Assembly (NCBI RefSeq): GCF_000471965.1
Contig: NC_022550.1
Coordinates: 434,001-498,000 of the forward strand
Direction of reading: 5' to 3'
DNA: 64,000 bases
Source: Blattabacterium sp. (Nauphoeta cinerea)
GTDB lineage: Bacteria; Bacteroidota; Bacteroidia; Flavobacteriales; Blattabacteriaceae
This document shows positions 21,945 through 57,959 of this stretch, one piece after another (the stretch's first letter is position 1; each line of letters opens with the position of its first letter). The notes beneath the pieces were generated by a model. It saw only the letters and a list, made by a program, of their open reading frames with translations. It ran no database searches and was not told where the DNA came from. Both the position numbers and the translations under genes were made by a program.

Positions 21945-22295
21945 ATGCCTAGATCTACAAATGCGGTTTCCTCTAGACGAAAACGTAAAAAAATACTGAA
22001 ATTAGCTAAGGGGTTTTATGGTTCTAGAAGTAAAGTTTATACAGTCGCTAAAAATGCTGTAGAAAAATCTTTTCTTTATTCTTTTTCAGGAAGAAAAAGA
22101 AAAAAAAGAAATTTCAAGTCTCTTTGGATTCAACGTATTAATGCAGGAGTACGTCAGTATGGAAAATCCTATTCCGAGTTTATGAATAAATTATCGGAAA
22201 AAAAAATCAAAATCAATAGGAAAATTCTTTCATATATATCTATGAATGATCCTGATGTTTTTAAAAAAATGATAGATGACGTTTATTCAAAATAA
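21945..22295 (+). CDS. rplT: 50S ribosomal protein L20
   Basis: A 116-residue rRNA-binding assembly protein of the large subunit. MPRSTNAVSSRRKRKKILKL, GFYGSRSKVYTVAKNAVEKS and RKRKKRNFKSLWIQRINAGVR match the family. L20 represses this operon in some bacteria, but there is almost no leader here in which to see such a site. The 3' end overlaps the converging def gene by 13 bases. Confidence 0.96.
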   Translation: MPRSTNAVSSRRKRKKILKLAKGFYGSRSKVYTVAKNAVEKSFLYSFSGRKRKKRNFKSLWIQRINAGVRQYGKSYSEFMNKLSEKKIKINRKILSYISMNDPDVFKKMIDDVYSK

Positions 22296-22792
22296 ATTTT
22301 TTTTAAGTTCATTAATTTTTTCTCTATCATTTTTTTTTTATGTGTAGAAAAATAATCTATAAAGAGTTTTCCTTCAATATGATCATATTCATGGAAAATG
22401 ACTCTTGCACATATACCTGTTAAGGTCCTTTTTTGTTTTTTCCAATTTTGATCATAATATTCAATTATAACATTAGATTTTCTTTTAACATCCCCCATGA
22501 TTCCAGGAAGACTAAGACATCCTTCATTAAATTTACATTCTTTTCCATGAATTTTTAATATCTTAGCATTAATAAAAACCTCCTTAAAATAAGGAGTTTC
22601 TACTATAAAAAGTCGAATATTTTTCCCAATTTGGGGAGCGGCTAATCCTAATCCTTTTACTTTTTGTACAGTTTCAAACATATCTTGAATCAATTGATTG
22701 ATTTTATTTTTGTTTTCATGAGAATAAAAATCTATATTTAAACACTTTTTTCTCAAAATAGGACTTCCATAAAGAACTATAGGTAATACCAT
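22283..22792 (-). CDS. def: Peptide deformylase
   Basis: Metalloenzyme that removes the formyl group from nascent proteins. All three motifs are present in 169 residues: GLGLAAPQIG (47-56), EGCLSLPG with metal-ligand Cys92, and HEYDH with His134, Glu135, His138. The start ATG at 22792 lies three bases past the end of the restored ruvX frame, so ruvX and def appear co-transcribed. The C-terminus overlaps the end of rplT on the other strand. Confidence 0.96.
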   Translation of the reverse strand: MVLPIVLYGSPILRKKCLNIDFYSHENKNKINQLIQDMFETVQKVKGLGLAAPQIGKNIRLFIVETPYFKEVFINAKILKIHGKECKFNEGCLSLPGIMGDVKRKSNVIIEYYDQNWKKQKRTLTGICARVIFHEYDHIEGKLFIDYFSTHKKKMIEKKLMNLKKIYFE

Positions 22793-22795
22793 GAA

Positions 22796-23220
22796 TTAAT
22801 TTTGTTTTTCTTTTTTTGTAAGATAAGACTGTAAAATTATAGTAGCACTAATTTGATTTAAAATTACTTTTTTCTTCTTTTTTTTTTACCTAAACCCAAT
22901 TTGATCATAGTATCAAAAGCTATTTTTGATGTAAAACGTTCATCTAATCTTTCTATAAGAATTTTAGGATATTTTATATGAAATTTATAAATAAATTTTT
23001 GAATTTCTGCTTCTATTGAAATTTCTTTTTGATTATTCAATTTTTTAGGTAATCCTATAACGATTTTTTCTATTTTCTCATCAACTAAAAAATATTCTAG
23101 AAAATTCATCAATTTTATAGTGGGAACGGCGTTTAATCCAAACGCAAATATTTTTTTAGTATCTGTTATAGATAAACCAGTAATAATTTTCCCATAATCC
23201 ATTCCTAATATTTTTGCCAT
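22796..23220 (-). CDS. ruvX: RuvX/YqgF, RNase H-fold protein, frameshifted in an A10 tract
   Basis: Putative Holliday-junction resolvase/rRNA maturation factor. The first 118 residues read MAKILGMDYG, IVIGLPKKLNN and ERLDERFTSKIAF, then stop at 22864-22866 just after the A10 run (T10 on the + strand, 22878-22887). One extra A, or two fewer, restores the frame and adds the conserved C-terminal helix ISATIILQSYL, ending at 22796, three bases before def. In that restored helix the expected acidic pair (DE before ISAT in relatives) reads NQ, so a catalytic carboxylate may be lost. Either transcriptional slippage makes some full-length product or the gene is decaying. Confidence 0.82.
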
Positions 23221-24692: not shown

Positions 24693-26110
24693 ATGAATTT
24701 ATCATCTGCTATTCATAAAAAAATATTTTATATTGTAAGTATTTCTGCTCAAAGGATAAAACAAAATAGCTATGTAATAGGAGGTTATGTTAGAGATTTT
24801 TTGCTAGGAAAAATAGAATCGAAAGATTTAGATATTTTAACTATAGGGGAAGGAATAAAATTAGCTAAAGAGGTTTCTAAATATATTGAACCTTCTCCTA
24901 AAATAAGAATATTTAAACGTTTTGGTACAGCTATGTTGGAATACGATAATCAAAGAATAGAATTTGTAGGATCTAGAAAAGAATCTTATCACTTTTCCAG
25001 TAGAAAACCCGTTATAGAGTTAGGATCATTACAAGATGATCAAAACAGAAGAGATTTTACAATTAATACTTTAGCTGTAAGTTTAAATCGTAATAATTAT
25101 GGAGAATTGATAGATCCATTTGGAGGATTATCTGATTTAAAAAAAAAATATTAAGAACTCCATCAGATGCAGATATTACTTATTCTGATGATCCATTACG
25201 AATGATGAGAGCTATACGATTTGCTACTCAATTACAATTTGATATTGAAAAATATTCATTTCAATCCATTCAAAAAAATAAGAATAGGATAAATATCGTT
25301 TCTATAGAAAGAATTGTCGAAGAATTTAATAAAATTTTATTATCTCAAAAGCCTTCTATAGGATTGTTTTTATTATATAAATCTGGATTATTGTCAATTA
25401 TATTACCAGAATTAGTTTCGTTAAAAGGAATAGAAGAAAAAAATGGATATAAACACAAAGATAATTTTTACCATACTTTACAAGTAGTAGATAATATTAG
25501 TAAAGAAAAAAATAATTCTCTTTGGTTAAGATGGGTAGCATTGCTTCATGATATAGGAAAAGCTAATACCAAAAAATTTTTACCTAGAGCAGGATGGTCT
25601 TTCCATGCTCACGAATTGGTAGGATCTAAAATGGTTGCAAATATATTCCACCGTTTAAAGCTTCCAAAAAATTATTCTATGAAATATGTAAAAAAAATGA
25701 TTCAACATAGTTATAGACCTATTGCATTAATAGGAAATAAAACTAGTGATTCTGCTATACGTAGATTATTATTTGATATAGGAAACGATTTAGAAGATTT
25801 GATGAAATTATGTATCGCAGATATTACTACCAATAATATAGATAAAAAAAATCAGTATAAAAAAAATATTTATCTTCTTATAAAGAGAATTCAAAAATTA
25901 GAAGAAAAAGATAAAATTCAAAATTGGAAATCACCTATATCAGGAAATGATATCATGAAAGCCTTTCATATTAATCCATGTAAGGAGATAGGTATCATAA
26001 AAAATTTTGTTAAAGATTCTATTTTAGAAGGGAAAATATCTAATAATTTTCATTCTGCTTATGTTCTTATGTTAAAAAAAGGAGAAGAATTAGGTTTTAA
26101 AAAAAAATAA
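24693..26110 (+). CDS. cca: CCA tRNA nucleotidyltransferase, frameshifted in an A10 tract
   Basis: Adds or repairs the CCA 3' end of tRNAs. Two adjacent frames together form one normal enzyme of about 472 residues. The first (24693-25154) has the nucleotidyltransferase motifs YVIGGYVRDFLLGK, DLDILT and RRDFTINTLAV. The second carries DDPLRMMRAIRFATQ and the HD-domain LLHDIGKA. The break is at A10, 25139-25148: adding one A (or removing two) turns DLKKKY-stop into DLKKKILRTPSDADITYSDD, the expected linking sequence. The enzyme should be essential, so slippage on the A tract or an assembly error is more likely than a dead gene. Confidence 0.9.
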
Positions 26111-56738: not shown

Positions 56739-57802
56739 TTAGTTTAAAAAACTTTCCTTAATCAAAGAATATGGGACTTGACAATTATACGAACATTTTC
56801 CTATCTCCTTTAATAAAGAAAATTGAATTTTATTTTTTCATTTTTTTTATCATGTTCCATGATTCGCAATAATTTCTCAATTTCTAATTGAGATATTTGA
56901 TTTTGTATTGGGTATAATGTATAAAATTTAGATCTAATTTCTCTATAATCAGATAAAGATAAACCATTAATTTTGAAAGAAATCCATGATTCATAAATCA
57001 TTCCCATAGTTACAGCAACTCCGTGTAACATTTCTTTTATACTCATAAAATAACTCTCTAAAGCATGTCCAATAGTGTGTCCAAAATTTAGAATTTTTCT
57101 CAATCCTTTTTCTTTAGGATCTTGATCTACTATTTTTTGTTTAATTAATATAGATTTCTGAATTAGATGTATCCATTCGTTTTCATTTTTAATGATATCT
57201 GTTTGTATTTTATCCATTTCTTTCCAAAAATTCTTATCAGCTATCAATCCATGTTTAAACATTTCTGCCATTCCAGAAAGAATTTCTTTATTTGGAAGTG
57301 TTTTTAAAAAATTTGGATCAATGATTAAAAATTTTGGAATATAAAAAGACCCTATTTCATTTTTTATAGAACCTAAATTCACACCTGTTTTATATCCTAT
57401 AGCGGCATCAACCATTCCTAATAAAGTTGTAGGAATATTAACAAAACGAATCCCTCGTTTAAATATAGATGCGACAAAACCCCCAATATCTGTTATAACT
57501 CCCCCTCCTAAATTTATTATTAAACTTTTTCTAGTCGCCTTAAGTTTTTCTAGATCTTTACAAATTTGAATACATGTATAAATATTTTTTTCTTTTTCTC
57601 CTGATTTTATCTTAATAAGATTCGATTTTTTTAAAAAATTTATATGTCTAAAAAGAACAGGAATACAATGTACACTGGTAATATCATCTACTAGAATAAA
57701 TATATTTTTTATGGAATCTACTTGATAAAGTAAATAATTTTGAAGTACATCATAAGCTTCTTCATGAAAATATATGAATTCTTCCTTTTTTTTCATTTTC
57801 AT
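56739..57802 (-). CDS. aroB: 3-Dehydroquinate synthase, frameshifted near the C-terminus
   Basis: Second shikimate-pathway step, NAD-dependent cyclisation of DAHP. Start taken at 57802 (MKMKKKEEFIYFHEEAYD); an upstream in-frame extension looks non-coding. LGGGVITDIGGFVAS, PTTLLGMVDAAIGYKTGVN, KHGLIAD and LNFGHTIGHALE are intact. The frame ends early at 56810, after HDKKNEKIKFNFLY. One added A in the A6 at 56833-56838 gives HDKKNEKNKIQFSLLKEIGK and a normal C-terminus ending at 56739. Whether full-length enzyme is made is uncertain; the lost part is about 25 residues. Confidence 0.9.
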
Positions 57803-57839
57803 AAATTTATCCTTGATAACAAAATTAACCAATTTTTGA

Positions 57840-57959
57840 TTAATCAATAAAATAAAATATTTTATATAACCAAAAAATGATAAAAGCAAAACCTATTATG
57901 AAAAAAAATATGTTAGGAATCCATCCTAGAATATTAATAAATTTAAATAAACATTTCAT
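57840..57959 (-). CDS. Small single-membrane-helix protein (39 residues)
   Basis: A 39-residue frame starting MKCLFKFINILGWIPN and ending FYFID, with one clear hydrophobic helix (about 15-33, NIFFFIIGFAFIIFWLYK). It lies on the same strand, 37 bases upstream of aroB, in a 210-base gap that otherwise holds nothing. The WIPN-helix-W-L-Y-K pattern recalls short flavobacterial membrane proteins of unknown function (DUF6341-like), but that comparison is from memory. It may be a real small gene or chance. Confidence 0.45.
   Translation of the reverse strand: MKCLFKFINILGWIPNIFFFIIGFAFIIFWLYKIFYFID

Follow-up and report, generated by a model that had tools for sequence, protein, structure and literature searches.

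Replacement of a catalytic aspartate in the RuvX homologue of Blattabacterium, and a probable one-base frame break of its gene in the symbiont of Nauphoeta cinerea

Results

The ruvX (yqgF) gene of the Blattabacterium of Nauphoeta cinerea encodes asparagine where RuvX proteins outside the symbiont family have the catalytic aspartate of helix α3, and its reading frame is broken just before that helix. The loss of the aspartate is the stronger of the two findings. On balance, we lean slightly towards an account in which an ordinary ruvX lost its α3 aspartate early, later lost a single base, is rescued by slippage, and is kept for 16S rRNA maturation with altered catalysis. The window analysed is a stretch of 64,000 nucleotides from the 622,952-base chromosome of strain BNCIN (PMC6039017; G000 in our genome comparisons).

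Identity of the gene

A whole-genome search found ruvX to be single-copy in G000, located on the minus strand with def and dapD as neighbours. The gene for peptide deformylase, def (window positions 22283–22792, minus strand; ORF list and Pfam), lies directly downstream. The zero-frame ORF of ruvX (22864–23220, minus strand), identified from the ORF list, Pfam and the whole-genome search, encodes 118 amino acids and ends before helix α3. This truncated product scores 68.9 bits against Pfam PF03652 (RuvX; cutoff, 29.2 bits), and full-length orthologues score 85–102 bits.

The gene shares with the YqgF/RuvX family (putative pre-16S rRNA nucleases; PDB entries 1vhx, 1nmn and 7ess) not only a Pfam match above the cutoff, but also the motif-I aspartate in GxDxG (D8; codon 23197–23199, minus strand), the DER motif with its β5 glutamate (E94; codon 22939–22941, minus strand), a segment ISATIILQSYL that aligns to all three structures, and the def neighbourhood. 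E94 is the motif equivalent of E106 in Deinococcus YqgF (DrYqgF; PMC9601230). Two features set the gene apart: asparagine (histidine in some other genomes) replaces the α3 catalytic aspartate, and α3 itself is out of frame in the Nauphoeta symbiont. Judged by its sequence, the gene is a RuvX homologue by every test but the α3 aspartate, and falls outside the catalytically complete kind.

The frame break

Translation in the zero frame gives MAKILGMDYG...LGLGKKKRRKK and ends, after 118 codons, at a premature TAA stop (22866–22864, minus strand). Helix α3 survives in the next frame, as had been noted in the initial annotation: the tail VILNQISATIILQSYLTKKEKQN (22796–22867, minus strand), which is conserved in 48 of 48 readable Blattabacterium genomes, carries ISATIILQSYL and reads on to a TAA at 22798–22796. 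That annotation had placed the break at an A10 tract. The tract is there, as T10 of the plus strand at 22878–22887, and the break is real in the sequence, but the missing base most likely belongs elsewhere. In-frame relatives read ...KKKKRRKKVILNQISAT in this region, and the zero-frame codons agree with in-frame orthologues through ...RRKK. GGT plus A10 is precisely as long as the first tract of the long-tract relatives, and the A10 tract is in frame with the orthologues. The second tract, an A6 run at 22868–22873 (minus strand), is A7 in G005, G022, G035, G036, G045 and the sister genome G020, and the gap in a blastn alignment against G036 falls within it. Since the relatives have A7 here, the first tract is full-length and blastn places the gap in this run, one base has most likely been lost from the A6/A7 run. 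Counting the tracts and aligning the region pairwise with G020 and G036 led us to reject A10 as the lesion site.

The A10 tract appears to be a better slippage site than the A6 run and is the likely place of rescue. RNA polymerase slipping by +1 on A10 may still give some full-length RuvX. Such a slip would produce an all-lysine loop, GKKKKKKVILNQ..., and the frame-restored protein would contain ILNQISATIILQSYL; an all-lysine loop close to the predicted slipped product occurs naturally in G012. Slippage rescue of homopolymer frameshifts has been published for Buchnera and Blochmannia (reviewed in PMC5009743; PMC3017870), and corrected transcripts amount to 12–50% in other insect symbionts with slippage rescue (PMC5009743; PMC3017870). 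Our literature search found no report of slippage rescue for Blattabacterium in the library searched. The ruvX gene has the sequence hallmark of slippage-rescued genes, a single-base indel beside a long poly-A tract in a gene that is otherwise conserved. As in Buchnera and Blochmannia, the indel arose in an AT-rich reduced genome, and essential genes are among those affected. There are also differences: rescue was observed in those symbionts, whereas for Blattabacterium ruvX it is a prediction from sequence; the A6 run with the ruvX lesion is situated downstream, 4 nt past the A10 tract likely to slip; and ruvX breaks recur at one loop.

Frame breaks across Blattabacterium

We compared 49 Blattabacterium genomes, in 48 of which the C-terminal helix is readable; G010 has a ruvX without a recognisable helix. 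The gene is in frame in 40 of the 49 and broken at the Lys/Arg-rich loop in nine. The nine breaks lie on scattered branches of an eight-gene Blattabacterium tree built with FastTree. G021 has N in the loop stretch, which may be an assembly gap. The ruvX lesion of the sister genome G020 lies in the first tract, and its second tract is A7, so G000 and G020 most simply broke independently.

Other genes are broken in the same manner. The initial annotation had drawn attention to a similar break in cca, 2.3 kb away, and we confirmed it: cca (24693–26110, plus strand; ORF list, Pfam and relatives) lacks one base at A10 (25139–25148), a tract one base short against two relatives, and is thereby split into two ORFs; G020 reads AAATAAAAAAA in frame at this position. 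An aroB-like gene (3-dehydroquinate synthase, judged by eye; 56745–57892, minus strand) has lost a base at about 56833–56838, where G000 has A6 and both G020 and G036 have A7, splitting off the last ~60 codons. Genes recognised by sequence in a 191 kb sample of the same chromosome (G000:200001–391000) include nadD-, rplO- and rnr-like genes with homopolymer breaks and an obg-like gene broken at a G9 run. In the 191 kb sample of G020, a murE-like gene, likewise recognised by sequence, has a homopolymer break, and murD- and topA-like genes show two-base frame changes. Essential genes (rplO, cca, aroB, murE) are also struck by single-base homopolymer breaks, and the breaks in the rplO-, nadD-, rnr- and obg-like genes raise the question of sequencing error versus slippage genome-wide. 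Because similar homopolymer breaks occur in other genes, the ruvX break is ordinary for Blattabacterium.

The same observations bear on whether ruvX is in fact intact and its A7 run was read as A6 through sequencing or assembly error. We regard this as rather unlikely, even though every lesion is in a homopolymer, the window holds an aroB break of the same A7-to-A6 type, and rplO and obg, whose loss would not be expected, are likewise broken in the 191 kb sample. Among the nine broken genomes, some breaks, as perhaps that of G021 with its N, may be assembly errors. Error would have to account for breaks at the same loop in eight other genomes, the sister genome having a lesion of a different kind; single-base breaks number only about three in the 64 kb window; and genuine, rescued homopolymer breaks have been published for other insect symbionts (PMC3017870). 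Taken by itself, the ruvX break is a known endosymbiont phenomenon, probably tolerated, or partly a sequencing error.

The missing catalytic residue

Ahead of ISAT, the window reads Asn-Gln (AAT, 22856–22858; CAA, 22853–22855; both minus strand), as the initial annotation had stated in contrasting it with a flavobacterial Asp-Glu and concluding that the restored end lacks acidic residues. The asparagine pairs with aspartate in PDB alignments to the proteins of B. subtilis (1vhx), E. coli (1nmn/1nu0) and M. tuberculosis (7ess). By position, the aspartate before ISAT is the α3 catalytic carboxylate, D122 of Deinococcus YqgF. The putative catalytic carboxylates of that enzyme are D22, E106 and D122, which we placed on β1, β5 and α3, respectively, from the description in the paper, and D122A or E106A blocks its RNase activity (PMC9601230). 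Given that the lost aspartate is the α3 catalytic position, a frame-restored protein would still be without one of its three catalytic carboxylates.

Outside the symbiont family, inspection shows the α3 aspartate in 70 of 70 Flavobacteriales whose end is readable, and it is likewise present in 17 Aquimarina and in 20 out of 20 families elsewhere in Bacteroidota. Among relatives, the residue next to it varies (K, E, Q, A, M, V, P or S), and Aquimarina RuvX has Asp-Gln before the helix, so only the change from Asp to Asn needs explaining. A glutamate forming part of an acidic pair is ruled out by this variability; the aspartate of the proposed Asp-Glu holds, and its loss with it, but the glutamine occupies a non-catalytic position.

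The initial annotation had allowed that the active-site acid might sit at a different conserved position. We searched an alignment of 157 sequences for an acidic residue common to all non-Asp sequences and found none. Position 90 was considered as a compensating site, being acidic in 79% of the Asn/His sequences versus 16% of the Asp sequences, but it is lysine in 8 and was rejected. D8 and E94 are 100% conserved in both groups of the alignment, and Asp8, Asp93 and Glu94 are invariant in all Blattabacterium read.

Age of the aspartate loss

Among the 48 readable Blattabacterium genomes, the α3 site is asparagine in 42, histidine in five (three lineages) and aspartate in one. Most of the Asn-bearing genomes have intact frames, which rules out an aspartate loss private to the broken gene; the connection between break and loss implied in the initial annotation is not supported. 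The alignment with other Blattabacterium and Flavobacteriales that it had proposed puts the aspartate loss in the ancestor of the genus, before the breaks, which are recent and scattered. The sole Asp form, G007, is nested among Asn-bearing genomes and is an apparent reversion to the catalytic residue.

Elsewhere in the family, G064 and G257 have asparagine, five g84 genomes asparagine or histidine, and G270 histidine; seven other members, including the 1.3 Mb G258, keep the aspartate. A DnaE tree indicates at least two aspartate losses and one reversion in the family, with the losses in the G064/G257 lineage and in a clade of Blattabacterium and g84/g85 (support 0.62; three losses if this clade is wrong). 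No ruvX match is present in four of the nine g84 genomes (G263, G264, G266 and G267; 200 kb genomes), the other five having the Asn/His form; from these matches, ruvX loss is in progress in this lineage.

All four exits from asparagine at the α3 site lead to histidine or aspartate, with an empirical chance of ~0.016, and only 2 of 56 Asn-majority columns with at least four changes stay within Asn, His and Asp. This restriction is moderately significant and suggestive only, because it was tested after the pattern had been seen and Asn to Asp is the commonest exit from asparagine anyway.

Selection on ruvX

The N-terminal part of ruvX has dN/dS values of 0.11–0.50 between close pairs. In the helix segment, I124, S125, A126 and I129–Y133 are invariant in all 48 readable Blattabacterium, broken ones included. 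This conservation fits continued use of the helix, or recent lesions, in which case it may merely reflect selection before the break. An early pseudogene, with a non-functional 118-residue product and a helix bound to decay, would explain the stop codon before α3, and the absence of a ruvX match from some g84 genomes could be taken in the same sense. We consider it quite improbable: broken and nearest in-frame genomes differ in the helix segment by 2 nonsynonymous and 14 synonymous changes, dN/dS of the N-terminal part is 0.27 between G000 and G020, and the lesions of these two genomes appear separate and recent.

Discussion

What might RuvX do without its α3 aspartate? RuvC was sought in the 49 Blattabacterium genomes and found in none; the five genomes tested for RuvB and RecA have both. 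A role for RuvX as the sole Holliday-junction resolvase is nevertheless disfavoured: RuvX persists in G064, in which a RecA match was not found, and in G262, which has only weak RuvB-like matches. RuvX retention does not follow recombination and therefore fits a role in rRNA maturation, which is known for E. coli YqgF (PMC9601230). RuvX would accordingly be expected to serve not Holliday-junction resolution but 16S rRNA maturation, in a capacity that is possibly non-catalytic or attenuated.

Histidine and asparagine can also ligate metals. A neutral or imidazole ligand in place of an α3 active-site carboxylate has a precedent in the RuvC of Deinococcus-Thermus: DrRuvC has a natural α3 histidine (H139) and works with Mn2+, and EcRuvC D138H has only weak Mn2+ activity (PMC9601230). 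The parallel is incomplete, in that RuvC has two α3 ligands and keeps the other aspartate, whereas YqgF has a single one and none is left on α3. The enzyme may be inactive, given that DrYqgF alanine mutants at the aspartate are dead and EcRuvC D138H is weak.

If RuvX were a non-catalytic scaffold binding pre-16S rRNA or the 30S particle, the α3 aspartate would be free to go. Consistent with this, one of three carboxylates is gone genus-wide and in other lineages, its alanine substitution abolishes the RNase activity of DrYqgF, and RuvX is still under purifying selection. Yet a scaffold has no need of Asp8, Asp93 and Glu94, which are invariant in Blattabacterium, and the aspartate has been replaced solely by possible metal ligands and has once reverted. 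We judge a pure scaffold unlikely. Since the remaining carboxylates are constant throughout, we prefer an attenuated or metal-shifted enzyme, whose chemistry would be attenuated or Mn-like, using Asp8, Glu94 and the Asn/His ligand.

YqgF/RuvX is essential in several bacteria. The natural Asn and His orthologues, in which the rest of the active site is kept, together with the G007 reversion, form a series for testing the need for catalysis, and this series is equally suited to testing which metal RuvX uses. The recurrent breaks at one loop provide up to nine natural replicates for tests of slippage rescue in Blattabacterium. Tentatively, and at somewhat less than even confidence, the sequences suggest that ancient insect symbionts, namely Blattabacterium together with the g84/g85 lineages and, independently, the G064/G257 lineage, may mature their rRNA with an altered RuvX whose sole α3 carboxylate has become Asn or His, a metal-switched enzyme or a pseudo-enzyme, selected across deep divergence to stay within Asn, His and Asp and with one reversion to aspartate.
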